Source: Lepidostoma basale | Lineage: Eukaryota; Arthropoda; Insecta; Trichoptera; Lepidostomatidae | NCBI GenBank assembly: GCA_022606425.2 | Contig: JAHDVF020000883.1 | Location: 1,860,001 to 1,924,000 of the forward strand | Length of the DNA: 64,000 nt | Direction: 5' to 3' | Shown: in pieces, positions 6,786-61,365 of the stretch | Layout: every line of letters starts with the position of its first letter | Position numbering within the stretch: the first letter of the stretch is position 1 | Notes under the pieces: generated by a model | Database searches by the model: none | Told to the model about the DNA's origin: nothing | Seen by the model: the letters and a program-made list of their open reading frames with translations, nothing else | Position numbers and translations under genes: made by a program

Positions 6786-9415
6786 TTATGACCTTGGTTT
6801 TATTTTCAAAAATACACCATTTTTCGGCATCGTTACAAAAGCCAAAGGGTTAAATATAATTTTAGGTTCAGTTTTTTCACAAGGCTCCACTGAATATTTC
6901 GTCAAAAAGGAAACCAGTCCCACCATACTCTGCATTTTTCCGAACCTCAAACCTGAAAACATAATATTTTTTTGGGTTAGTCTTAATTTATATAATAACA
7001 CCAGATTTTATTGAACAACTGAAAATCAACACCCTGTGATGGTCTCTTAACTCCCGTTTCTACAAATCTTTATTTTTTATCATTTTTATTTTTATTATGT
7101 TTTCCTGAATAATGCTTCTATAAATTGTTGCCTAAAATTTATAGCTTACTACTCCAGCTTCGAAGAAAATGTTACTTTTTGCCCAACCAAGTATTCAAAA
7201 TTAAAACAACGCCAAATTTTAACTGACTGTACTGAAAATAAAATGTACTATGCTATTTTGGCAAGTAACTTTAAAAGTTGGCGCATTTAATAATTCGAAG
7301 GGCATCCGTCATGCCGGAACCATTTTTTTTTGTATACAACAGGTGTGTATCTATTTGTCTCAAACATTAGTAAAAGTGGCGTCACTATCTGTCTCGCTCA
7401 CGCTACGAAAAATGCCTTATAGTCTCTCAGAATTTTTTTTTCGAAAATGGATTTTATTACAAATAAAAAGCCCACACCTAATTTAAGAAATAATCAAGGA
7501 TGTGTTATACCATTTTGGAATCCTCATTAAAATTTAATTAATAAATGCGCCAACTTTTAAAGTTACTTGTCAAAATAGCGTAGTACATTTTGTTTTCAGT
7601 ACAGTCAGTTAAAATTGGGCGTAGTTTTAATTTTGAATACTTGGTTGGGCAAAAAGTAACATTTTCTCCGAAGCTGGAGTAGATAGCTATAAATTTTAGG
7701 CAACAATTTATAGAAACATTATTCAGGATTACATAATAATAAAAAATGAAAAAAAAAAAATTTGTAGAAACGGGAGTCAAAAGACCATCACAGGGGGTTG
7801 ATTTTCCAGATTTTTTTTAAATACTCATAATTTCAAAAATACAAAACTTAGATTTTTTTTACATTTTTCCCATAACCAGCATGACTTGCCCTATCATCTG
7901 TTTCCGGGTTGACAATCTTTTCAATCTTTGTCTTCGGGGGAAAAAATGTCGAAAATAATAAATATTTGTTATTCTTAATTGATAAATAAATATCATTATT
8001 GAAGTTCACAGCTAACGCATTACGATTATCAAAAATTAAAGGAATATTTTACCTATACAATTGCGGGGTCCTTCACCAAAGGGCAAAAACACCATAGGGT
8101 GTCTCTCTTGCATGGCTTCTGGGGTGAACCTCTCTGGAATAAACTTTTCCGGTTCAGGATAATATTTCGGATCATTATGAATCGCGTATACTGGTATACA
8201 AATACGTACACCTTTTTCTATAGTCAAATTTGTGCCGGGAAATGTGTATGTAGTGGAACAAACGCGTGAAAGATTGCCTAGAGCGGGGTACTTTCTCATT
8301 GTTTCGTTCATCACGCACTGTAAATATCCCATGTCTAGCATTGCTTCATACGACATGACACCGTCATGTTTATTCAGCGCGTTCTTAATGTCCACTATCA
8401 CCTTGTCTTGCGCGTAGGGGTTCATTGCCAACTCGTACAGAACCATGGCCATCAGAGTAGAAGACGTCTCGAACCCGGCCACGAAGAATATGAACGCCTG
8501 AGCAGCCATAAATGTATCGGTGAATTCGATTTTATTATCACTCAAACTATCAGTTTTTATGTATCCTTTTCCTTTTAATTCCAAAAGAATATCAACAAAG
8601 TCTTGGCGTTTTGTATCCGTTTTCTTTCTCTCAGCGATAATATCCGTCATTGTAGATACGAAAAAGTTCTCAACTTTCTCTGCATGAACTCTCATTTTGA
8701 AAAATCCATACACTTTAGGAGTCAAAAGACCTATAAGCACCATGATTACTTTATACCAAGAAGTCTCAAATATCTTCTCTCCCATTCTTCTAAATAAAGA
8801 ATTTGAATCACTCATCGACTTGGCTTGCACTCCAAAGGCGCACGAACCTATGACATCCGTGGTGAATCTGGCAGTTAAGTCTCTTATGTCTTGAATATCG
8901 TTTTCCTTCACATTCTTCTCTATGAATTTTTCAAACCACGCACCCTTTTCGCTTATTAATTTATACATGTTTTTTAATTTGATGGACGTGAATGCGGGGG
9001 TGAATTTTAGTCTCATTGCCCTCCATGCGTCGCCTTGCACGCAAAATAAATTAAAATTGATTCCATTTGTGTTTGATATGACGTCATCCACCCTTTCGGG
9101 AAAGGCTGAAAAGTCCTTCACCAGCACTTGTTTTATCATGTCCGGATCTTTGATTATTAGTTCAGGATTACGTATGTAAAAATATCCTATCATTTTTTCG
9201 TTTGGAAATAATTTGTAAATCGTCTGATAACTTTCACCGCTGTTTAACTGTTTCCATAAACCGTTGTAGAATGGTGTGAGTATTGAAAATGGCTTGACGT
9301 GAACAATTCCTTTCTTACTCCAGTATACGAAATTACTTGTCAAGTATTTATATATTGCAAATATAATGCTGCCGACTAATATTGCGTTCGTATATGATAC
9401 TACAAGGCTCAACAT
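6786..9415 (-). CDS. Cytochrome P450, CYP6-like (gene 2)
   Basis: Exons are complement(8053..9415) and complement(6786..6952), giving 509 residues with a 1,100-bp intron. The start is the ATG at 9415. The nine codons further upstream open only with TTG, and the chosen Met aligns with the other genes. Seen: N-terminal anchor AILVGSIIFAIYKYL, WRAMR helix C (about 132-136), AGFETSS, ETMRKYPALG, PERF, and PFGEGPRNCIG with Cys about 453. Exon 2 encodes LRFGKMQSMVG and ends KIKPRS. One I-helix position reads FFVAGFETSS where the other five genes read FFAAGFETSS. It is the tandem duplicate of gene 3. A TATA/initiator pair lies about 170 bp upstream. The intron carries a 0.8-kb foldback element. The role is a microsomal monooxygenase, with unknown substrate. 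Confidence 0.94.
7019..7809. mobile_element. Foldback element with ~270-bp inverted arms in gene 2 intron
   Basis: The left arm (7019 to about 7293) and right arm (about 7535-7809) are reverse complements over their whole length with scattered mismatches. The termini read CTGGAAAATCAACCCCCTG on the minus strand and CTGAAAATCAACACCCTG on the plus strand. The spacer of about 240 bp has no ORF that I recognise. The equivalent intron of gene 3 follows the same sequence up to TTTTATTGAACA and then lacks the element, so it is a post-duplication insertion. It would fold into a long hairpin in the pre-mRNA. Confidence 0.85.
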
Positions 9416-24539: not shown

Positions 24540-27500
24540 CTAAATTGTCTTATTACGATTCGAAATTTTAAGCCATATGCCATTTTTAGGAGATGTTACG
24601 AAAGCCAAACTGTCTAGGACTATTTTTTCTTCTGTTCGTTCAGAGGGCTCCACGGTGAACTTGTCGAGGAAGGAGACGAGACCAACCAAACTTTGCATCA
24701 TTCCATACCTCATTCCTAAAACAAAGTAAAAAAGTTTTTAGCATAAACAATGAAATTGAGAAAATTGTGTTCATTCATTCATCTTCGAAATACGAATTTT
24801 GTACACTGATTTCATTTATATTTTACAAAACATGTTAAGAGTTATGAATTCGGTTATTTTTTTCACTTTTCTTCTTATTATTATTTTTGCATATCTTTTG
24901 GCCTGTTTCTAAAGAGTAATTGGCCTCCTACGAGGACGACTCCCAACTGTCAATCCATCTCTTTGGTGGTCGGCCCGGGGTCATCTACCTTTAAAATGTC
25001 CGTGCAACACAATGAGAAGAAGTCTGGATGGATCCATTCTCCTAACGTGTGCATATCAGTATCCTCTTCTTTGCCATCCCCACAATAAGGAATGGAAAAT
25101 AATTGTATAATACATTAATACATTAAACAAAGCTGCTGACTGTAGACCGAACGCAACATCAGATTAGAGTAGTGATGTCAGGAGTTCCACTAAAGAACAC
25201 CAAGGAGTTTGTCTACCTCGGGAGCAAAATAACATTGGACGGTCGGTCTAAGAGCGAGGTCGACAGCCGTATACATCAGGCTAGGCCTGCATTTAATAAA
25301 AGGTCGAAAATAATATAATCAAATAATATAGAGACTAAAACTGAGAATACTCCTCATCAAGACCTATATATGGAGTATCTTGATGTACGGCTGCGAGACA
25401 TGGTGCCTATCCGAAAGAGATAAGCGGAGACTAGAGGCTTTTGAGATGTGGTCCTATAGAAGACTATTAGGAATTTCCTGGAGAGACCACATCACGAATG
25501 AGGAAGTTCTTCAAGGAATCGAAGGAGGAAGACACCTGCTCAGGACCTTGTCCAAAAGGCGTGCAAGATGGATCGGCCATGTAATACGTCAAGGAGGTCT
25601 CTTGCATGCCATAATGGAGGGTATGACCGAGGGGACAAACTCTAGGGGACGCCCACGCCGAGAGTACCTGGAGGACCTGTTGATGGACGTGCGCTGCTCA
25701 TCATATGCAGGTTTCAAAAGAGCCGCAGAAGACAGGGAAGAATGGAAGAGAAGAATAGAAGAAATTGCTGCAAACCAATCCCAGGATTGAAACTTTCTAA
25801 CTAAACATTAAAGGAAGTCGTCGACTTACGACCTATGAGACTTATGACTGTTCGACTTTACGATCACAATCCGCGATCGGTTCCCTACGCTAAACTTGGC
25901 GTACGCGGTCCATAAATGCAAATTATGTATTTTTATTTGTTTTATTTATATATAATTTTACCAAAAACATTTTGATATTAGGTATTTTTTTTTTGTATAT
26001 AATACAAAAGGTCTTCACAACCCAATTACTGTTTACATTTTACATACAAAAATAACACAGACATACATGTTACAATAAAACATATACATAAGCAATTGTG
26101 GTATGTACCTGTATGATCCTTAAAGGACGCATAGGTCATTTGGAGAATATCCACATTGACTGACACCTCATTCAAGAGCACCATACCCCGGGTTATTGTA
26201 TGCTGCGCCATGACATTTGTTCTGCTATGCGGTATGCACGACAGATCGTGTCTTCTAGCGCGAGCATACCTGTCCGGTGCATTGAGGCCATAACACTTAA
26301 AGAGGTATGGGATATCAATGAGGTTACGGAGTATTTTAAATCCTAATCTACCTTTTCTTCTTGATTCGAGACTGCAGTACTCTGTGTTAATCAATAGATC
26401 ATTGTGATGCATAAACCTTGGATATGCGGTTGTTAAAAAAAGGCGAGGCAAACTCGAAAAATAATCGAAAAATAAAATTAGGCAAACTCGAAAAATAATA
26501 ATAAAATAATTCATAGAGAAATCCGATAATTTACACTGACATATGTATATCACGGTTAGAAAATATTATATTACGACCAAATCAAATAAGTTAATAATAA
26601 TTTACTCAAAATAACGCATTAGAGATGCTTTTTTTTTTAAGAAAGTTGCTCTCTGAAGTCAATAATTTCGGTCTTCTGATCGTAACATTTTCTTTAACTA
26701 ATATGAATGACATCTTTACAAACATATTTTGGTTTGCAAATATCCTTTCTGAGCGTAAAATATTTCTCACTGATAAAGGATGCCTCCAGTCCGAAACATG
26801 TTTGGGAAAAGTGCAATAAATGTTTTTCCTCTCCTTACCAAATGAAATTTTCTTCGTTAGGGAAGTAAGAGAAACGGAAATTAAAAAAAGGGACACATGC
26901 GTTTTGAAATGTTACAGAATGCTTATTATTTTTTGTTCAATTTATATCAATAAAAAAAATTGGGACTGGAAAATACAGTATGTTTAAAAAATAATTCATG
27001 TACATATATATAAATTGACGATGAATATAGAAATAGTATGTTTATTATTAAGATAACTTAAACACGTACCGATGCAATTTCTAGGACCTTCTCCAAACGG
27101 TAGATAAACCATAGGATGTCTCTTTTGGCACGCCTCTGGAGTGAACCTATCCGGGTCAAACTTCTCCGGATCGGGATAATATTGGGGATCATAATGCATT
27201 GCCATTACGGGAATTATAACAGAATACCCCTTTTTTATAGAGTATTTTGTTCCGGGAAATGTGTAATCAGTCTCACTGACTCTTGTGAGAACCCCTAGAG
27301 CCGGGTACTTCCTTATGGTTTCACTGAATACGCATTTTAAATACTTCATTTCAGATACGCCTTCATAAGATATTTTCCCGCCGTGTTTCGCCAACACAGT
27401 GTCAATCTCAGACAAAACACGTTCCTTGACGTCGGGATTTTTAGCCAACTCATATAATGTGAAAGACATCGCAGTTGAAGATGTCTCAAAGCCCGCTGCA

Positions 27501-33055: not shown

Positions 33056-33369
33056 CCTAAACTTGTCGACCTTCGTGGCAGAGTGGTAAGAGCTCTGACG
33101 TCCATACCGAAGGTCCCGGGTTCGATTCCCGGCGATGGCAGTGTGTTAGAATAAACTAGACAATAAAATGGCGATAGCTGTGTGATTGTCACACTGTCTT
33201 TGGTCTGGTGTAGAATTAACGTGACAATAAAATGGCGAAAGATTAGCTACCTATCACATGTCACGGAAAACAATATAATTGTCAACAGTACATTGTTACT
33301 TCAAAATTATTTCTGTTAAAATTTAAAACACTGTTATAATATCACAATTTCTTCTAATTCACTGAGAGT

Positions 33370-33420
33370 GGAGAGACAGCTGTTTCGCCAACCGATGTTG
33401 GCATCATCAGGTGTTACAAT
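33370..33420 (-). ncRNA. Hammerhead-ribozyme-like motif with complete core
   Basis: On the minus strand: CTGATGA (33410-33404), one extra T, stem II GCCAAC-ATCG-GTTGGC (six pairs), GAAAC (33386-33382), loop AGCT, and GTC (33377-33375) with predicted cleavage after the C. Stem III would be two pairs. Stem I pairing is weak in this copy. The extra base between the first core box and stem II is found in all copies here and differs from the simplest consensus. Confidence 0.6.
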
Positions 33421-33430
33421 AAACTCAGTT

Positions 33431-33490
33431 TATTGTAACACCTAATGATGCCAACATCGGTTAGCGAAACATCTGTCGCGACACTCTCAG
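33431..33490 (+). ncRNA. Hammerhead-like motif, mirror copy with damaged core
   Basis: CTAATGA (33442-33448; the invariant G is A), stem II GCCAAC/GTTAGC, GAAAC (33466-33470), GTC (33475-33477), then GCGACACTCTC. Likely inactive because of the core change. Confidence 0.5.
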
Positions 33491-33783
33491 TGAATTAAAA
33501 GAAATTGTGATATTATACCAGTGTTTTAAATTTTAACAGTAATATAATAATAGCTAAAAAAAACAAATTGTATACAGTTATTGGGTTTAAGCGACCTGTT
33601 GTTTACAAAAAAAGTGTATTAGATTTCAGGAAAATTATCCTCAAGATGCCACAAATCAACAACGAGATTTAATAAAAATGACAAAACATTATTATTTATT
33701 TGAATTTGTTTTAAATTTCACCAAAAATATGTATTTTGTTAATATCAGCGTAAGTACCTATTTCTTTTGTAAGAATTAGTTAG

Positions 33784-35825: not shown

Positions 35826-36349
35826 TTTTCAAATTTTGAAATTGTGAATATTAAACATATCCGAAAATATCATTTCATTTTACATCTTAGAAAACATGTC
35901 TTATCATTTGCGATATTTTATAAAAACATCTAGTCTTTAGTTCTGCAGAGTATAAGAAAATGTAATATAAATAAACAATTTTGTTAATTTCTAAAGAAAT
36001 ATAATCAATTGAAATATTTTATAACAGTGTTTTTATTTAAACAGTTAATAACGTTGAAATATCACAGTGCTTCTGCCAAAACAATGGATTATCGTATTTC
36101 TAATACCTAAAGGGTTTAACATTGGCGTGATTTTGCTTACGGAATGCTCTAAAACCGAGTAAAAGAACTATACACCGTCAATTTAATTAGATACATTTTA
36201 CATGATTTATATGTTTCGTCTCTCGAGAGAATAACCACAATTTATTCTAAATTCCCCATAACTTTGTGTTCCGGATTCATAATTGAACAATATTTTTTTT
36301 CTTTGTAACACAACATTTTATTATTAAATACAAATAAAAATAACACATT

Positions 36350-37314: not shown

Positions 37315-40300
37315 TTAACATTTCTGGGCCCTGGGTGTAATTTTAAGCCAAATTCCGTTTTTAGGCACCGTAACAAACGCCATACTATCAATTATGATCT
37401 TGTCTTCTGTCTTCTCCGTGGGTTCCACATTGAACTTGCTCAAGAGGGAGACGAGGCCGACCATACTCTGCATCTTGCCGAATCTCAATCCTGAAAAAAA
37501 AATTATAAAAAATTCTTAATTATTTTTTTAAATATCTCATTTGAAATTTCATGATATGTAAGAGGTCTTTGTTAATATTAAAAATAATATTTTATATATT
37601 TATTAACTGTTAATATTTCCTACACTGTTATAATATCACATTTTTTTATCACACACTTTTTGAAAATGTCGCGACAGCTGGCGATACAGCAAATAAATAT
37701 GCAGAAAGAGTATTCACAAACTTATAAATAAAACGTTTACATAGAAATGACTTTTTATTAATGTTGAAAAATTATAAAATGTAAACTGTGTTTGTTAAAT
37801 CATTTTAAAATGTATTTTAACTATCACTTATTAAATAAGACTAAATTTAAAACTGTCATTTTCAACAATATTAATGAAATGATTAAATTTTAAAAGACAG
37901 TTATTAAAATTTATTTTTATGAAATTGTCACTACGGCAGATTCGCCAACCTATGTTGGCATTAACAGGTGGTACAAACAACTTATTTGAAACACATGATG
38001 ATGCCAACACCTCTGGTAACACCGGTGGGAAGAGCAATTACAGGTGACCTTCGTGACAGAGTGGCAAGGATCGATTCCCGGTGATGTCACGAGAATAAAT
38101 AAATTCTAAAAACAAATTGTATTCAGTAATTGGATTCAAACGACCTGTTGCATAAAAAAAATTATTCGCTGAACGCGGTCTCCTTGGAGATCGACGTCTT
38201 TTATATTACATTAGTGAAAGTACGGTTAGAAGACAAATACTCTTGACTTTAGTAAGTATCTAGTCTTCCCTACGTCATATCAGCTCTCATGCGTTTCTGT
38301 TATGAAATATATTATTTTATCTGTACTCAATAGATGCCTTAAACATTAATTTTGTTTGTAATGTCGGTTGAGAAAATATACTGATTTGAACATAGGTGAG
38401 CGGCTTTCACGACAATCTCATAAAAATAAATGCCTTTACGTTTAATAACAGTGATTCAATTTTAAAACATTTAATCATCTTGAAATATAGCGTTTGGGCC
38501 AAAACAATTGATTATCTTATCAATCTTAATGTTTAAAATGGTGTTTACATCATTGTTTAATAAGTAATAAATAGATAAGTTTACTTATTTCATTGTTTTC
38601 TTATTTGATAATTCTTGCAATACAAAACATGTCACTTTCACGATTTGAAGATTATTTTGATATATTGTCCGCTAAACCCTATCTCCTTTCGCTTATGTAA
38701 GTATCGAAGGTGTTGATACTTATAGGTATAATATTCCATGTGTAATTAATACAAATGAAAACGTCTGTTTTCTAGAAGTTTTATTATATTTTAAGAGAAT
38801 GACATGTTTCGCCATGATAACACATTGTCAAATGGCGCATCTTTTTATTAACGCAATGTGAAAGGCTACCGCCATTAACGTATTGCTAGATAACGCCTGG
38901 AGATGTCACTCCAATTTATATGATATTTTTAACATGGAGCAGTTTTTGTTTTTACAACATTTTGAATGTATACAAATAATACTTGTAGACGAATACTGGA
39001 TTTTACCCATTGCGGGTTATCATTTCAAGGATTAATTGTATCTCAATAGAGACAAAGATGCAAATTGGAAACAGAATATGTACATCACTGTTCAAGAAAT
39101 AATAAACAAGTTTTCATTTGAATAAATTATACAATGTATTTTCCATAATTGTTCAATAAACAATTAATACGAATAAATTAGAGCTTAAAGATGTTACGAG
39201 TAGGTGTAACAACAACACAAAAATTACATGGTCGGGCATTTAAGTAATGGCTTTTTATCAAAGGTTTATTTTAAACATAAGGCGTCGGAGAAATTTACGT
39301 GCATGCATGACACGATGTATGAATGTTGAACGGATCCGACGTCCGGCAAGTGGGAACGAGCTGACGTAGCTGTCATTCAAGGTTTGATTTATTTGGACGT
39401 GTCATGTTTTTCGCGGTCTTCTTCTTCATTTATTCTTTCCATGTGTCCAAAGCATCAAATTGTTCCTTTCATTATTTTGTTCATAATATTTTCATTCGAA
39501 CTGCATTCATTTATTATATTTTCATTCGACACTCTATCATACACAGAGTATCACACATTCGTCTAACAGATATCATTTCTATTGCATTTATTCTTCTTTC
39601 ACCCTTCTTTTTGGCAATACCGTACTTCGCTTCCACACATAAGAGTCGGTAAAAGAACACCATTGTGCACTGCCATTTAAACTTTTTGAATAGGCTTTTG
39701 TTAGCGATCACAATTTAAGTGGACCATTCACTTTGTTGCCTGCACCAACCCTTATTTCAATTTCCCTCTTCACTCGCCCATCCTCTGTTACATACATACT
39801 ACCTAAATATACAAAATCATATTCTTATTCCAAATTTTTACCATTAACGCTGATGTTTCAGACTGTCATGATTTTTTTTCGAAAATCATTACCTTAGATC
39901 TATTAACATGCATCATCAGATTATTTTGCACCCATACCTCATACAAACTAGACACCAGGACTTGTAGTTCATGCTCGTTGTCTACAAGATAGATAATTTG
40001 AGATTCCTCTTCTTCTACGCAAAAACACGCGTTAACGTTTCTTTAATAATATGTAATTAATACAAATGAAAAGTCAGTTTTCTAGAAGTTTTATTATATT
40101 TTATTAACACATTACTACCAACTAACTAACCATCACGCCATTTTCCCGGAGGGGAAGGCAGAGAGAAATGATCGCCACAATGCTCTGTCCTGGCATACCT
40201 CTCGGGATTCCTCTACATTCATACATCGTACCATGCACGCACGTTGATTATTCCGACTTCGAATGTGGCCGCCTTTTATTAATTGACTAATTGAGTAATC

Positions 40301-43300
40301 ATGCCATGTTTTCCTCGGTTTCCTTTTTCACTCACACTGCTTGTGTACAACTTTTAAACCATTCTACTCTCATCCATTCGTTCCATATGTCCAAACCATC
40401 TCAGGGATTCTTTTTTAATTTTATTATCATTATTATTATTTTGAATCGCTCTTAACATCATGACAGCATGAGCCAAATCGATGTAAACGGTTTTTTATAT
40501 AGCTATCATAGTGATTCTCGTGACATGTGATAGGTAGGTAATCTATCGCCAGTTTATTGTCACGTGAATTCTTCACCAGACCAAAGACAGTGTGACAATC
40601 ACACTGCCCTTGCCGAGAATCGAACCCGGAACCTTCGGGGTGGCAGTCAATGCACTTACCACTCGGCCACGAAGGTCCTCAAGATATCTGTCATCTGTCA
40701 TCTGCCTTATATTTCTTTCTTATTTCATCGTTCGGTACTCACAACGTTTTCTCGCACATATTTCTTAGTGATCTCATTTCTACGGCGTTTATCCTGCTTT
40801 CATCCTTCTTTAGCCAGCTCCACGCTTCACTTCCATACATGAGGGTTGGTATTAACACATTAACGCATTATCCAATGCATAAAACAACGAAACGAGAAAT
40901 ACAAAGTGCTGCAATTGTTTCTCCAAGGCAAAATTAAAAGAAAATTATGTGTATGATGAAAAAGTATATTTTGACTCAAAAACCTTCGTTAATATTCCGT
41001 TTACCCACTCTATGATCCCAGCTTTTTGATTCAATAAATTTGGATTTGTAAACATATTTTTATTTACCCTTATGTTTATAATTGTGTTTTAGCTGGTTGG
41101 ATACATTTAGGTACTTAAATAACTAACTAACCATCATGCCGTCTCCTCGAAGGGGTAGGCAGAAAGAATGAACTGCCACACTTTTCTTTCCTGACATATT
41201 TCTCTCGCTTCCTCAACATTCATACATCGTGTCATGCAACGCGCGTCGATTTTTCTGACTCCTCACATGGCCGACATTCAATATTTGATTTATTTGATCT
41301 TGCCACGTTTTCCTCGATCTTCCTCTATTTCTGGTTCCATTTACATCATTAACATATAATTTTTTTACCATTCTTTCTTCATTCATTCTTTCCATATGTC
41401 CAAACCATCTTAATGATCCTTTCATTATTTTGTTCATGACACCATCATTCGCACCGCATTCACTTCTTATATTTTCATTCGACACTCTATCATACACAGA
41501 GTATCCACACATTCGTCTAAGAGATCTCATTTCTACTGCATTTATTCTACTTTCATCCTTCCTTTGCCAGTTCCATGCTTCGCTTCCATGCATAAGGGTC
41601 GGTAGAAGAACACCATTGTGCACTGCCATTCTAGCTTTTTTGGATAGGTTTTTGTTTGCGATGACAACTTTAATACTTTACTTTAATATAATTTAGGTAA
41701 TTTCTCTATGATATTACCAAAAAATATATATTTGTTGATCTTTGCTCGGCGCAAATTAAAATTTATGTTTATAATTGCTTTGAACTTTCATTGTGTATCG
41801 GGCATGAAAGTCAATGTGATACTTCTTTTATAATTCCATAATTTGTCATTTCTCCTGAACCGTCATAAAACCCGTGAGTTGGATCTTTTGTTTAAAAATT
41901 GCATTGTGTAAATGTCATTTTACTACTTGTGTGTCAATGACCATTTGTTTGTCTAAAAATATATTTTTTTCCCTTATAAAAGCAACACCTTTAGAGTAAT
42001 AAATTACTATCAATTCAATATGTGTGAACCCTAATTCTTTTAATTGTGTTTTTAGCTGGCTAGATACATTTAGGTACTTGCACTATTAGTTAGTTAGAAA
42101 GATTCAATCCTGGGATTGGTTTACAGCAATTTTTTTCTATTCTTCTCTTCCATTCATCCCTGTCTTGTGCGGCTCTTTTGAAATCTGCATATGATGAGCA
42201 GCGCACGTCCACCAACAGGTCCTCCAGGTACTCTCGGCGTGAGCGTCCCCTAGAGTTTGTCCCCTCGGTCATACCCTCCATTATGGCATGCAAGAGACCT
42301 TCTTGACGTATTACATGGCCGATCCATCTTGCACGCCTTTCAGACAAGGTCCTGAGCAGGTGCCTTCCTCCTTCGATTCCATGAAGAACTTCCTCATTCG
42401 TGATGTGGTCTCTCCAGGAAATTCCTAATAGTCTTCTATAGGACCACATCTCAAAAGCCTCTAGTCTCCGCTTATCTCTTTCGGATAGGCACCATGTCTC
42501 GCAGCCGTACATCAAGATACTCCATACATAGGTCTTGACGAGGAGTATTCTCAGTTTTAGGTCTATATTTTTTGATTATATTATTTTCGACCTTTTATTA
42601 AATACAAGCCTACTTGCACTATTATATTACTAAAATTTCTCTATTTGTTAGGATCTTTGTCGGTCAAAAAATAAAATCAGTATTGGAACTGCTTTGCCCT
42701 ATTATTGTATATCGGGGCACAAAGTTAATGTGTACTAGAAATACTTTTTAAATAAATCGTCTATTGTTTTGGCCGAAACACTATGATACCTTAATATTTT
42801 AAACTGTTAAATTAAATAACTTGGTTTTATGTATCATAATTGTATTTTATTTTACGCGACAGCTGTTTCGTCAACCTATATTGACATGCAACATCTTATG
42901 ATGTCAACATCAGTTGACGTAACAGCTGTCGCGTAAAATAAAATACATGAAACAAAGTTATTTAATTTAACTTTTTTAAATAATTTGGTCATTTCTTTCC
43001 GTACAGTCATAAAAACCGTGAGACGGATCTTTTGTTTAAAAATTCTATAGTGTAAAAGTATTTTGTGTCAATGTCCATTTGTTTGTCTTAAAATATGGAC
43101 TCTCTCTTCACTAAATCAATAGCTTTAGAGCAATAAAACACCCTCAACTCAAAACTTCCATTTAAAAAATCCTTTTCAAAATTTAACCCATTGATATTTC
43201 TATTGTTATGTCCCTGGTACTCTGCCTAAGTTAACTAACACACGTTATAAATATTTCTAAGTTCTTGCACTCATTAAGTAGTAATTTTGGTTTGTTTATA

Positions 43301-45872
43301 TCGTTCTCCCGATAATTAAAGTGTAAGCCTTCGAAACATGTCGAATAAATAATCTCAAAAGTGAAAAAAACAGTGTTTCAATTCACAAAAAAATCGTTAA
43401 AAACTTTCGATAATGGTTAACTTACAGTACAACATGCGTGTTTTGAGCTCTTGGATCTAAAGTAAAAATAGCTATGATGTTGACCAACTTTCGATAAGAA
43501 AAGATAAAAAAGGAGACTTGAAATGATAGAAACTTTATTAGGTTAATATAAAAATTGCATTGACTTATCTAAAATAAAAGTATTTAAATATTTTTTTTTC
43601 TTAAACAATGATGAAAAATTCCATATTAAATTATTAAAACCAATGACGTCTATTTTCTAAATATTTTACTTTATTTTATGTGAATTTGTGTCTGGCGAAA
43701 CATATCATTCACATAAAATATTTTAAAAAAGCTTCTTGAAAACTGACTTTCATCATTCGAATTATTTTAAATTATTTAAAACATTAATATCAATTCAAAA
43801 TGATTTCGAGAAAAAGAACATTAAAATAACCATAAGTTTTTGAACCAAAGAGTTCATTTAAAATACATATTACGTCTTGCAATTACTAGATGTAATGCTT
43901 TACTTATTTCATATCGTAATAGCAGCATTTCAATTTTAATATTTTTTATTATTCTTTTCTCAAATCACTTGGTCAGAAAGATGTCCATTGTCCATCACCT
44001 GTTCAGTTTGTAGCCAGCTATGTAATCAATTCATATATTTAAAATACAATCTCGCCTTTTTTTAATTAACGAATTTATTTTTTTAAAATACAAGAAATAA
44101 ACCTTTGATAAAAAGCCATTACTTGGTGGTTGAACTTATTTAACACTTAAAATGTGTGAAAAATATGTATAAAAACCACATTTTTTTGGGAGAATGAGGG
44201 CTTACCGGTTTCGCTCTATGCGAGCATCCTCAAGGCTTTTAAACACAAACAGTAGGTGTAAACAAACAGTATGTATAAAGCCCTGAGGAAGCTCGCATAG
44301 AGCGAAACCAGTAGGCCCTCATCCGCATATATAAAGTGGTTGTATACCAAGTACCAAAAGTGTTTAATTAAATAATAAATAAACCATAAATAAATGTGAA
44401 AGTAGCGGGAAACTAACACATTAAAAGGCCCAATGTGAATTTTAAGAACCAGCAAAGATGTTCATAGACTTTGCTGCATAAAAAACCACTATGATTAAAA
44501 TTTACTCACCAATACAATTCCTGGGTCCTTCTCCAAATGGTAAATACACCATGGGGTGTCTATTTTGTTTCGCTTCAAGTGTGAATCGATCGGGATCAAA
44601 CTTCTCTGGTTCCGGATAATATTCTGGATCATAATGCAACGCTAACACAGGAATAACTACTGTGATTCCTTTTTCGATTTGGCATTTGGTTCCTGGGAAT
44701 GTGTATTTGGTGTTGCAGACCCTCGTCAATATCCCCAGCGCGGGATACTTCCGCATGGCCTCACTGATTACGCACTCCAAATAGTGCATCTCGGATATCG
44801 CTTCGTAAGACAATTTTCCGTCATTTTTTGCTAATATAGTATCAATCTCATCCATGACGCGTTTCTTAATTTCAGGACTCTTAGCTAACTCGTATAATGT
44901 AAAAGACATTAATGTGGAAGAAGTTTCAAATCCGGCTGCAAAGAATATGAACGCCTGCGCCGTCATGAATACATCTGTAAATTCGATGTGCGATTCGTCG
45001 GAATCGTTTTTCAAGTATCCCTTTTCTTTTAACTCTAAAAGCAAGTCAATAAAATCGTGTCGTTTAACTTTACTTTTTTGTCTCTCATTAACAATTTCGG
45101 TGACAGTGGATATGAAGAATTCCTCCGATTGTTCATCGAAAATTCTCATTTTAAATAACGAAAATAACTTTGGTGACAACAAGCGGACGAACACTTTGAG
45201 TGTTTTTATTTTCGTTGGCTCGAATATTTTCCTTCCGATTTGTCTAAATGGCGCATTCGAGTCTGCCATCGAGTTCATCTTTACGCCAAATGCAACCGAA
45301 CCAATAACGTCGGTGGTGAATCTCGCCATGAGTTCCCTGACCTCCTGCTTACTCTGTTCTTGGATAGTGTCATCGACAAACTTTTGAAACTCTTCTCCCT
45401 TCTCAAGAATCAAATGAAACATATTTTTTAATTTTCCGGATGTAAATATTGGTGTAAATTTTTGCCTCATCGCCTTCCATTTATCCCCGTGCACTGTAAA
45501 CAAATTGGCATTTAACTTCTCGATTTCGTCGTTTGCATCTACCTGCCTTTCTGAGAAGAGAGAAAAATCTTTCACTAATACTTGTTTAATTATGTCTGGA
45601 TCTCGTAACAGTAGTTCCGGCCGCCTAGATCTGAAAGATCCCACTATTTTTTCTTCTTTGAACTCATGATAAATCTTTTGATAGATTGAACCAACGCTTT
45701 CGCGGAAGAGCATGAAGTTTTTATAGGCGCCAAAAAATAGGACCGGTTTTTTGTATGGTAATCCTCGATCCTCCCAATATTGAAAATTATATGATAAATA
45801 TTTGTAAATAGCGTAAGCTAGCACAGAGAAGAATAATATCACATTCACGCCGGTTGCTTCCAGAGACAACAT
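37315..45872 (-). CDS. Cytochrome P450, CYP6-like (gene 5), long intron
   Basis: Exons are complement(44510..45872) and complement(37315..37490), giving 512 residues. The intron of 7,019 bp is filled with retrotransposons. No other second exon lies between, so the pairing is well supported though indirect. Start ATG at 45872 (MLSLEATGVN). Seen: N-terminal anchor about 10-26, W132-R136 (WKAMR), AGFETS 313-318, E371-R374, PDRF 427-430, and PFGEGPRNCIG 445-455 with Cys453. Donor GTGAGT, acceptor TTTTTTCAG. Exon 2 encodes GLRFGKMQSMVGLVSLLS and ends RAQKC. It is very close to gene 6 along its length. One peculiarity is RFTLEAKQ where the other genes have RFTPEA. Predicted microsomal monooxygenase, substrate unknown. 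Confidence 0.9.
37620..38000. repeat. Decayed hammerhead-type inverted repeat
   Basis: It contains ACACTGTTATAATATCACA (flank shared with 33330), TGTCGCGACAGCTGG (37668), a minus-strand unit CTGTTAATGCCAAC / GTTGGCGAATC (37925-37966), and a plus-strand GATGATGCCAAC (37987). All core boxes are damaged. Confidence 0.5.
38008..38345 (+). mobile_element. Family C LINE end with SINE inserted
   Basis: GGTAACACCGGTGGGAAGAG and, after a small SINE (38042-38160), GAGATCGACGTCTTTTATAT, ACAAATACTCTTGACTTTAG and GTACTCAATAGATGCC reproduce on the plus strand the family C 3' end of 21508-21760. It ends TTTGTAATGTCGGTTGAG. Confidence 0.65.
38042..38160 (+). mobile_element. Internally deleted SINE, tail type 1
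   Basis: Head ACCTTCGTGACAGAGTGGCA joins directly to GATCGATTCCCGG, and after a deletion to CAGTAATTGGATTCAAACG plus A-tail. Confidence 0.7.
38745..38840 (-). ncRNA. Hammerhead-family unit, variant core
   Basis: On the minus strand: TTGACAA (38831-38825), stem region, GGCGAAAC (GAAAC 38810-38806), AT, GTC (38803-38801), then the family flank ATTCTCTTAAAATATAATAA. The first core box is non-canonical. Confidence 0.4.
39270..39740 (-). mobile_element. Non-LTR retrotransposon family A fragment
   Basis: Plus-strand CCATGTGTCCAAAGCATC, TTTCATTATTTTGTTCATAA and GACACTCTATCATACACAGA are antisense to the family A C-terminus. Frame broken. A further upstream ORF2 part continues to about 39980 (minus-strand codons for Y..L..MHVNRS). 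Confidence 0.6.
40130..40865 (-). mobile_element. Family A element interrupted by a SINE
   Basis: The 3' UTR and RWFGHMERM region (40130-40425) and the upstream SWLKKDESRINAVEMRSL-type region (40678-40860) flank a SINE. Both halves are the same family in the same orientation. Confidence 0.7.
40426..40677 (-). mobile_element. tRNA-derived SINE, tail type 2
   Basis: On the minus strand it has head CCTTCGTGGCCGAGTGGTAA, box B GGTTCGATTC and the common body. It then ends with TACATCGATTTGGCTCATGC, TGTCATGATG and an AATAAT-rich end instead of the type 1 tail. Nested in a family A LINE. Confidence 0.82.
41120..41650 (-). mobile_element. Non-LTR retrotransposon family A, open C-terminus
   Basis: An uninterrupted 138-codon frame: GSEAWNWQRKDESRINAVEM, RSLRRMCGYSVYDRVSNENI, SLRWFGHMERMNEERMVKK and RSRKTWQDQINQI. 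Among the best-preserved family A copies. Its 3' end has the TTAG-rich tail (plus strand AACTAACTAACCATCA). Confidence 0.8.
42085..42610 (-). mobile_element. Non-LTR retrotransposon family B 3' part
   Basis: A 141-codon frame (MYGCETWCLSERDKRR, SYRRLLGISWRDHITNEE, RARWIGHVIRQEGLLHAI, RREYLEDLLVDVRC). Nearly identical at the nucleotide level to 25290-25795 but in the opposite orientation. Confidence 0.83.
42810..42970. repeat. Head-to-head hammerhead-type inverted repeat
   Basis: The arms, about 42812-42893 and 42895-42973, share TTATTTTACGCGACAGCTGT and its complement, then GTTTCGTCAAC / GTTGACGTAAC. The outer sequence TTAAATTAAATAACTT mirrors AAGTTATTTAATTTAA. Inside the gene 5 intron. Confidence 0.75.
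42891..42935 (+). ncRNA. Hammerhead-like motif with covarying stem II
   Basis: CTTATGA (42895-42901), T, stem II GTCAAC-ATCA-GTTGAC, GTAAC (42919-42923), loop AGCT, GTC (42928-42930). Both core boxes carry one change each. Stem II differs from the 33-kb copy by a C-G to U-A pair replacement. Confidence 0.45.
43600..43790. repeat. Hammerhead-family inverted repeat, decayed
   Basis: TTCTTAAACAATGATGAAAA, AATGACGTCTATTTTCTAAA and TTTATTTTATGTGAAT face ATTCACATAAAATATTTTA. The centre has TGGCGAAACATATC. The first core box is lost. Confidence 0.5.
44190..44330. repeat. Head-to-head hammerhead-type inverted repeat in gene 5 intron
   Basis: The minus-strand unit (44195-44240) and plus-strand unit (44278-44325) share GCTCGCATAGAGCGAAACC in mirror orientation and are separated by about 40 bases. 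Outer sequences GAGGGCTTACCGG and CAGTAGGCCCTC also mirror each other. Confidence 0.75.
44278..44322 (+). ncRNA. Hammerhead-ribozyme-like motif with canonical core
   Basis: CTGAGGA (44283-44289) fits CUGANGA. Stem II is GCTC-GCATA-GAGC, then GAAAC (44304-44308), loop CA, GTA (44311-44313; a permitted NUH site). Stem I pairs GCC (44280-44282) with GGC (44314-44316). One unpaired A sits between core and stem II. The mirror unit has TTGAGGA, one change. Confidence 0.6.
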
Positions 45873-49165: not shown

Positions 49166-49299
49166 GTCACAAATAATTAACAACAATTTAATTATTTTTC
49201 AAATTCACTGTTAAATTTACAACACTGTTATAATATAAAAAAAGAATAATTGTCTCAATTGAGACGAAGATGTAAATAGTTTTTTTGGAAACAGAACAT

Positions 49300-49970
49300 T
49301 TAATCTTAATAGATGGCGCTAGTGTAGATGTGAGGTGTTTTTAACATAGTAGCATATATACATCTTTCAAAAATTTGTCAGACGCGGTGGTCGTAAGAAG
49401 GGCGGAATGGGGATGTTGTTAACATAAAGCGATCGCTTAACCCAACCAATGACGGGTCATAAGTCCTGTAAACGCCTCGACTATCATAGTCTGTTTCCAA
49501 AAAAACAATTTACATCTTTGTCTCTATTGAGATACAATTAATTCTTTAAAATGATTAACCCGCAATGGGTAAAAATCCAGTATTTGTATACATTTAAAAA
49601 AACAAAAAAAGGAATATTTACTCTTTAAGAACTTTGCAACAGTTGTTTGTAAAGGGGTATATAAAAAAAATTGTGATTATATAACATTGTTGTAAATTAA
49701 ACAGTTATAATGTTCAAGTATCACAGTGTTTCGGCCATAACAATGGACAGTTAAAAAAATTCGTATACCTGCATGGCTTAACTTTTGGAATCCTACTTAA
49801 GCAAAGCTCTTATACTTTTTATAAGGATTAATTGTATCTCAATAGAAACGAAGATGTAAATTGTTTTCTGGGAACAGAATATGGTGGCCGAGGCGCTTAC
49901 AGGACTTATGACCTGCCATTAGTTGGGTTGAGCGATCGCTTTGTGTTTAACAACTTGGTGAAAAATATAT
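49300..49970. repeat. Two inverted copies of the GCGATCGC-core repeat
   Basis: The plus-strand copy 49305-49620 and the minus-strand copy about 49825-49965 (AGCGATCGCTTTGTG) flank about 200 bp. The first copy opens with ATAGATGGCGCTAGTGTAGA, as at 10540. Confidence 0.6.
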
Positions 49971-50084
49971 GTATCATAAATTTAATATGACACAGGTATT
50001 TTTTTAAACCTGTTTCGTCTTGCATAGAATAACCATAATTTATCGTTTCTTAAACAATGATGTAAAACTCCATATAAAGTAACT

Positions 50085-50200
50085 AATACGAATGAAAACG
50101 TATGTTTCCAGAAGTAATTTTTTTTATGTGAATGACATGTTTCGGTAATAGATACTAATGAAAATAGACGTTTTCATTACTGTTTATTACAAAATGTTAA
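50085..50200 (-). repeat. Hammerhead-family unit, truncated
   Basis: TTCTTAAACAATGATGTAAA, AATACGAATGAAAACGTATG and TGTGAATGACATGTTTCGG carry the minus-strand 3' half (GAAAC 50143-50139, GTC 50136-50134). The first core box is missing. Confidence 0.5.
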
Positions 50201-50746: not shown

Positions 50747-50795
50747 AACTACACTGATGAAGGTCTTCTGTGTCCCGAAACATGTTTGTGTAGTT
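50747..50795 (+). ncRNA. Hammerhead-ribozyme-like motif, best-formed copy
   Basis: Stem I 5' strand AACTACA (50747-50753), CTGATGA (50754-50760), stem II region with GG/CC, GAAAC (50777-50781), loop AT, GTT (50784-50786, NUH), and stem I 3' strand TGTGTAGTT (50787-50795). Stem I gives three pairs, a GU bulge, then four pairs. Stem II is short and has mismatches, its weak point. A sister copy is at 51294-51345. Confidence 0.65.
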
Positions 50796-60090: not shown

Positions 60091-60309
60091 CCTCACAAAG
60101 ATCTGTAGAATGAAATTTAAGATCACACGAAAGAAGCAGCCGTTATCTCCGGATGACTTAGGGACACTTTTAAAAACATAAGCAAATACTATTTTAAAAA
60201 ATAATGTTGTTTTATGAAATTTCATGGTAGATGTTCATTGTAAATAATGAAAAAATATTTTTTCTGTACAAAATCTTTTCAAAATATATATTTAGTTAAA
60301 ATCCTCTGA

Positions 60310-60425
60310 TTTTTGTGTCTTTGACCGGTTTCGGCAGCTCGCAGCCATCTTCTGGAAACGGCAGACTGCCCAGGATATGGGGCAGTAAGCTGCCGAAACC
60401 GCTCGAAGACACAAACATTCGTGGA
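60310..60425. repeat. Head-to-head hammerhead-type inverted repeat
   Basis: TTTGTGTCTTTGACCGGTTTCGGCAGCT (60313-60339) mirrors AGCTGCCGAAACCGCTCGAAGACACAAA (60389-60416). The minus unit has near-complete core boxes. The plus unit lacks the first box. Confidence 0.75.
60318..60358 (-). ncRNA. Hammerhead-like motif
   Basis: On the minus strand: CAGAAGA (60354-60348; one change from CUGAAGA), T, GGC-TGCGAGCT-GCC stem II, GAAAC (60332-60328), CG, GTC (60325-60323), AAAGACAC. Confidence 0.45.
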
Positions 60426-61365
60426 TTTTTACTAAATATACATTTTTAAAGCTTTTTTTCATTTTTTATTCACTTACATTATATGCATTATTTAGAAGCA
60501 AAGTCGGGATCTAAAAAACATTCATCGATTAACGAAATCGAAGCAAAAGCAGACATTGTCAGAACGGAACAACACTCAAGAAAAACATAAATGAAAATAT
60601 TATGACCTATCCAGCGTAGAACCCTTAGAGGTGACCTAACGAAGAGATTCGCAAAACCTGCAATATTGACCACTTTGTGAGATGTAGTAGAGAGAATATT
60701 CTGGAGAGACCGAGTTGAGAGAAATGACCCAGCGAGGATTCCCAAGATCGTGATGCACGAGACTCCAGAAGACTTCTAATTGATATCCTGTCTGAACAGA
60801 TTGCAAGATCTATAGAAAATAATCAAAGAAGTTCCATTATTATCCCGTTACCTTTAGCTACCACACCATCAAATGAATATAAAACTACTACCAACACCCG
60901 GTTGCTTACCCGTGAAATATTTACGAAAGTAAATCTAATTCTACAATACGTTAAGTTTCATGGTTGCTTGTTTTCTTGAATATCAAACAACAATAATCAC
61001 AAGAAAAATACTGAACTACAAAATCATGAATATATCACAATCGCATGAAGATGTCTGAATACATTGTCATTCAAAAATAGACAACCGTTAATACCGTGTA
61101 CATACAGACATAAGATTACATTGTCCCATGTAAACAATTGATGATAAAAACGCTGTTTTTATTACATTTCTGCAATACAGTCTAATTGCACGACTCAAGT
61201 ATAAAATCTTTGATAATTACTTTTGATAATTAGGTCAAGTGGCAAATTAAAATAAAATTTTGAAACGTTTGAAACATTAAATAATACCGTATGTTCCCAA
61301 AATTAAAACAACTAATTTACTTATCCATAAATATGAATTTAGTTACTTTTACAATAACAACAACA
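60426..61365. other. Unassigned spacer
   Basis: No gene recognised. The part 60490-60780 is less AT-rich and may be an eroded retrotransposon, but I cannot name it. Confidence 0.35.

Follow-up and report, generated by a model that had tools for sequence, protein, structure and literature searches.

Penelope-like elements (PLEs) provide the closest described systems for the insertion reported here, and their organisation is summarised below. The inverted pLTRs of Adineta Penelope elements lie mostly head to head and one of the two may carry an optional tail of 31 bp; the pLTR of Adineta Pen2a contains the first 12 codons, or 22 codons when the tail is present (PMC3846280). Three PLE insertions are described with duplications of 8, 9 and 10 bp, the 8-bp one being GAATTAAT, and some lack any duplication, so that a duplication is no strict mark of the family (PMC3846280). 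In vitro the protein of the Anolis PLE cuts AT-rich DNA on both strands and extends each of them, and reverse transcription of its RNA starts internally at two adjacent sites, the stretch between which constitutes the tail, 30-40 bp long and present in a fraction of copies (PMC11167929). The hammerhead of this element straddles the start of the ORF and cuts 26 bp after the start codon, although the dominant template is the unprocessed RNA (PMC11167929). PLE hammerheads are minimal, lacking stem III or loop contacts, and may act as dimers (PMC7761336). Two routes of PLE insertion have been put forward, namely self-priming, proposed for PLE inverted repeats (PMC3846280), and target priming, in which both strands of the cut site are extended (PMC11167929). 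A literature search for hammerheads in inverted or Penelope elements returned the known PLE inverted pLTRs; subscription papers lay largely outside this search and we do not claim that bare pairs are unreported.

We analysed a 64,000-nucleotide stretch of Lepidostoma basale DNA, hereafter the window, in which a palindromic insertion of 261 bases (33280-33540) lies within a SINE that we read as tRNA-derived. The interrupted SINE occupies 33066-33620 of the plus strand (limits approximate, from alignment with other SINE copies), and the insertion is flanked on the plus strand by an 8-bp AT-rich direct repeat, AATATAAT, at 33272-33279 on the left and 33541-33548 on the right. The insertion, the SINE that it splits and the repeat on either side had been proposed in the original prediction, the coordinates of which proved right. 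Alignment of the joined SINE flanks with six other SINE copies, all within the window, revealed five copies that cross the insertion site uninterrupted, the sixth being too short to judge. AATATAAT had been noted as occurring singly in such uninterrupted copies and does so in three of the five (at about 30934, 1468 and 50607, minus strand), but the remaining two carry diverged variants at the site. In the filled SINE copy the right AATATAAT is followed by three additional bases, AAT, which do not fit a clean duplication and which we would attribute to a minor alteration of the host SINE copy. The split copy also contains a partial internal duplication (33141-33241) that is absent from the five longer aligned copies.

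Inverted-repeat analysis placed the arms of the palindrome at 33308-33425 and 33427-33544 (118 nt, 92 % complementary, 1 nt between them), while a gap-free count from the centre at 33426 gave arms of 113 bp within the insertion that differ at 8 of 113 positions. By this count the left arm, which resembles a PLE pLTR end, occupies 33313-33425 of the minus strand and the tail-less right arm 33427-33539 of the plus strand, with the strandless junction of the two at 33426; the head-to-head orientation was assigned from the strand of the motif in each arm. The outer end of the left arm bears a 33-nt extension or tail (33280-33312, minus strand) that is partnerless on the right, where the T at 33540 is unmatched, and that can be aligned with other family members of the window. 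Two inverted arms are thus present as foreseen, but the inverted repeat is not terminal since the left 33 nt have no partner. Read by eye against outgroups within the window, the arm differences amount to about four derived changes per arm, three of those in the minus arm being clustered, and in our reading they do not decide between one and two templates. The full strand folds into one long hairpin of -158.2 kcal/mol, where shuffled sequences average -46.1, and the folds of single arms lie at -14 to -23 (minus arm) and -9 to -12 kcal/mol (plus arm). A 91-nt fold of the minus arm is better than those of shuffled sequences (z -2.33; 3 of 200 shuffles equally good) and forms a nested hairpin, not a three-way junction. 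Direct repeats within 33200-33620 measure only 12 to 28 nt; tandem hammerhead repeats are absent from this interval and the arms are inverted. Metazoan retrozymes are likewise described as small non-coding repeats with type I hammerheads, but they form tandem repeats with circular RNAs whereas 33280-33540 is a single head-to-head pair (PMC7229834).

Each arm had been predicted to contain a hammerhead-like core, and both cores are found, on the minus arm (33375-33410, minus strand) and, in damaged form, on the plus arm (33442-33477, plus strand). Read along the minus strand from 33410, the minus-arm core comprises CUGAUGA, an extra U, GCCAAC-AUCG-GUUGGC, GAAAC, the palindromic ACAGCUGU and GUC, the GAAAC being followed by AGCUGUC. 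The predicted CUGAUGA, six-pair stem II (GCCAAC/GUUGGC), GAAAC and GUC are therefore all in place, but the extra U separates A9 from stem II. The plus arm reads CUAAUGA, having lost the invariant G5, and one of its stem II pairs is broken; the type I core (CUGANGA, GAAA and NUH) is found in the minus arm only. Stem I is absent; the minus arm can form no contiguous pair at its position and the plus arm a single one. The outer stem ACUGAG/CUCAGU was considered as a candidate stem I and rejected because its 5′ strand spans the joint of the palindrome and so falls outside a single arm. Stem III forms no hairpin, the self-complementary ACAGCUGU instead pairing between two copies in a two-strand fold of the minus arm; this predicts stem II within both strands and an 8-bp stem III between them, without stem I and with core nucleotides C3 to A6 taken up in other pairs. 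Like the minimal type I hammerheads found in PLEs and Terminons, the motif has the type I core and a stem III that is absent or very short, with a self-complementary sequence that would pair between two copies and not within one, but it differs from them in the extra nucleotide between A9 and stem II and in the lack of stem I (PMC7761336).

By comparison with the Anolis PLE, the ATG that opens stem II (33402-33404, minus strand) is a possible former start codon. Counted from this ATG at 33404 the predicted cut falls after +30, and the arms end at +92 (inner-type) and +125 (left); the reading frame stops after 16 codons. The Anolis Poseidon PLE PAc similarly has its hammerhead motif at the start of the ORF, the cut lying 26 bp beyond the start codon as against 30 here, and also resembles this locus in having two adjacent reverse transcription starts that bound the tail, an AT-rich target and uncut RNA as its main template (PMC11167929). 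PAc differs in possessing stem I and in cleaving with the protein present, whereas 33280-33540 has no stem I and a closed frame (PMC11167929). On sequence grounds we read the motif as a putative worn, former PLE hammerhead site, which in the 33280-33540 copy is probably inactive and was probably dispensable for insertion; the claim of a ribozyme at this locus is weak.

Comparison with Rfam hammerhead models, which had been suggested as a check, yielded no match at gathering across the whole 64-kb window and, with the threshold relaxed to E = 10, none on the element, its minus arm or the palindrome at 44.2 kb. This is a soft negative with an imperfect control, as Rfam also misses the motifs at 50754 and 26770, which have a better stem I and are each faulty elsewhere. 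Permissive Rfam searches returned only sub-gathering matches, mostly of microRNA-hairpin models on the palindromes; a match to the type III hammerhead model Hammerhead_3 at the centre of the palindrome at 1 kb (994-1036; 12.8 bits against a gathering threshold of 48.5, E 5.5) is at chance level. One site in the window combines an exact CTGANGA with GAAAC and a stem II of five or more pairs; the average over 20 mononucleotide block shuffles is 0.0. When one core mismatch is allowed 7 sites are found against a shuffle mean of 4.05, which is barely above chance, and loose matches alone therefore carry little weight. A scan that demanded a self-complementary hexamer in the position of stem III gave 6 sites, whereas 100 dinucleotide shuffles of the window averaged 0.93 and never exceeded 3; the scan omits the 33410 site, with its 8-nt palindrome, and two of its six sites belong to opposite arms of a single palindrome. 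A palindromic hexamer follows GAAAC at 14 of the 178 GAAAC sites of the window (a raw count without shuffle control), at least three of the 14 falling in P450 coding sequence.

Of the other hammerhead-like motifs of the window, six have a stem I of 0 to 3 contiguous pairs, while another group on the plus strand at 26770, 50754 and 51302 has 7, 4 and 4 contiguous pairs respectively, 7 pairs being possible at 50754 with a 2-nt bulge. Stem III of this group is the self-complementary ACAUGU. G8 is lost at 26770 and 51302, and the motif at 50754 has an exact core and a weak stem II (about two good pairs). The extra nucleotide between A9 and stem II recurs in other motifs of the window. Motif pattern scans of a viral contig collection, a long shot for insect DNA, gave no match.

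BLAST with the element identified family members at 37601-37680 with 37883-38009, at 42855-42933, at 49207-49236 with 49662-49723, and at 35996-36064. Sequence beyond the tail is common to three members, those at 35996 and 49662 and the left arm of the 42.8 kb palindrome, and the ends of the parent element may therefore lie elsewhere. A second head-to-head palindrome of the same family (42788-42989) has a hammerhead-like centre and a left arm that runs outward beyond the tail. Inverted-repeat listing combined with motif scans identified palindromes of two other families in which both arms hold a hammerhead-like core, at about 916-1085 and, for the third family, about 44181-44335, and the inverted-repeat listing provided one of a fourth family with a hammerhead-like motif at about 60270-60457; like that at 42788-42989 these are assigned to neither strand. 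Tight non-overlapping inverted pairs (spacer up to 40 nt) number seven among the 25 pairs listed of 31 in all, and we read a hammerhead-like core in five of the seven, giving five palindromes from four sequence families. The duplication is proved by empty sites in one of these five, that at 33280-33540, whereas the ATTAAT flanking 916-1085, a candidate duplication, is ambiguous because it equals its own reverse complement. In our reading all ten arms of the five listed palindromes continue 5′ past the predicted cut site, and the RNAs that templated them were therefore not cut there. Partial copies of the family of the 1 kb palindrome occur at 50079-50190, where the longer arm meets no more than the outermost bases of a second one, and at 38730-38830.

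The arms look like PLE pLTR ends, and the original prediction was right to name the hammerheads of Penelope-like repeats among the relatives of this locus. Penelope-type head-to-head pLTR insertions are known, and we consider it probable from the analysis above that 33280-33540, with its worn hammerhead-like cores, is a further such pair, by whichever route it was primed. The PLE-like features are the 8-bp AT-rich duplication, the orientation of the arms, the one-sided tail and the position of the motif at a possible start codon, to which can be added the head-to-head palindromes of like build in other families of the window. The frame closed after 16 codons, unlike that of the Anolis PLE, which continues through the tail, speaks against a PLE origin. 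Adineta vaga Pen2a and its relatives share the head-to-head inverted pLTRs, the 8-bp AT-rich duplication (in one case) and the optional one-sided tail of 31 bp, but there the inverted pLTR is described as flanking an element body or captured DNA whereas 33280-33540 consists of the two ends only (PMC3846280). The occurrence of at least five such palindromes from four families in 64 kb points to a recurrent by-product of PLE insertion, not to one self-copying unit. 33280-33540 is best read as the trace of a PLE insertion, not as a new ribozyme element.

The insertion and its duplication, the head-to-head arms, the one-sided 33-nt extension and the further family members can be read directly from the window; from them we infer the PLE origin, priming from both ends of the target and the order of steps that follows. 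The locus would be a truncated PLE insertion in which two copies of the pLTR and ORF start were joined at their 5′ sides, with the downstream ends facing outward to the AT-rich target. The PLE protein would have cut both strands of the SINE at the AT-rich site, and each cut strand would then have primed reverse transcription from PLE RNA. Of two adjacent internal start sites, the outer one would have been used on the left strand, which acquired the tail in this way, and the inner one on the right. These short cDNAs would next have been joined near the 5′ end of the RNA, and filling in of the staggered cut would have left the 8-bp duplication. Taken on its own, two-ended priming at this locus is the likeliest route in our view, though a tentative proposal that we hold at somewhat short of even chances, and with the same reserve we suggest that head-to-head pLTR pairs may be a fixed product of two-ended target-primed reverse transcription, in which the one-sided tail would record the start site of each strand.

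Within a PLE origin the arms could instead derive from self-priming, in which the cDNA folds back, copies itself and is then inserted as a hairpin, a route which we regard as the less likely but still a serious contender. Both arms start at the same nucleotide, leaving a loop of 1 nt (or 3 nt), and the division of the eight arm differences into about four and four is that expected of arms identical at insertion; self-priming is moreover the route proposed for PLE inverted repeats (PMC3846280). It sits poorly with a tail confined to one arm and with the ability of the Anolis PLE protein to extend both target strands in vitro (PMC11167929). Spacers of 13, 34 and 37 nt in three other listed palindromes also count against it, although looped self-priming could give rise to them.

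A foldback or MITE-type DNA transposon, carrying the hammerhead-like core in its arms by coincidence, would account for the inverted arms, the small size and the 8-bp duplication, a length known in the hAT and P superfamilies. We consider this origin improbable. Its inverted repeats would be expected to be terminal, whereas here 33 nt of the left end are partnerless and the outer ends are unequal among family members within the window, and palindromes with this core and head-to-head build also occur in families unconnected to this one by BLAST (the 1 kb palindrome not having been used as a query).

It is more doubtful still that the locus represents a distinct non-autonomous mobile form with two inverted active hammerhead ribozymes as its working parts, as had originally been put forward. 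The intact core, stem II and GUC of the minus arm fit such a form, as does the stem III that ACAGCUGU can form between two copies, which resembles that of hammerheads acting as dimers (PMC7761336). Neither arm has stem I, however, G5 is lost in one of them, and C3 to A6 are engaged in other pairs in the two-strand fold. A transcript of both arms would form the long hairpin (-158 kcal/mol), which is far more stable than any single-arm fold; Rfam hammerhead models gave no match and both arms span the cut site. Together with the PLE-like arms and the one-sided tail these features leave the proposal of a distinct mobile form unsupported. A false palindrome is scarcely credible, since although library preparation or assembly can create near-perfect palindromes, this objection is countered by arms that differ at 8 of 113 positions, by the target duplication and empty sites, and by the presence of other diverged palindromes of like build.

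Head-to-head pairs that are small and complete, with empty sites for comparison and a tail on one side, offer compact test objects for PLE insertion, and clean ones because the ends, the start sites and the joint can all be read in one short sequence. The copying of the templates through the predicted cut site at this locus suggests that hammerhead-like motifs at such places can be passengers. If two-ended priming were true, the mechanism of PLE insertion would stay legible in genomes rich in such pairs, and bare pairs would make up a recurrent, ribozyme-marked class of short palindromic insertions.

A longer inverted repeat of the window (7073-7758) has arms of 223 nt that are 91 % complementary and lie 240 nt apart. 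Pfam searches with 9 of the 35 listed ORFs of the window identified two P450s, one RVT_1 match below cut-off and six ORFs without a family. These results tie no PLE reverse transcriptase or GIY-YIG sequence to the family of 33280-33540, which weighs against a PLE origin, and the 261-bp unit itself contains neither. The minus strand between 1749 and 55028 carries a cluster of insect-type cytochrome P450 genes, two ORFs of which are the Pfam-confirmed P450s and the others were recognised by sequence similarity.
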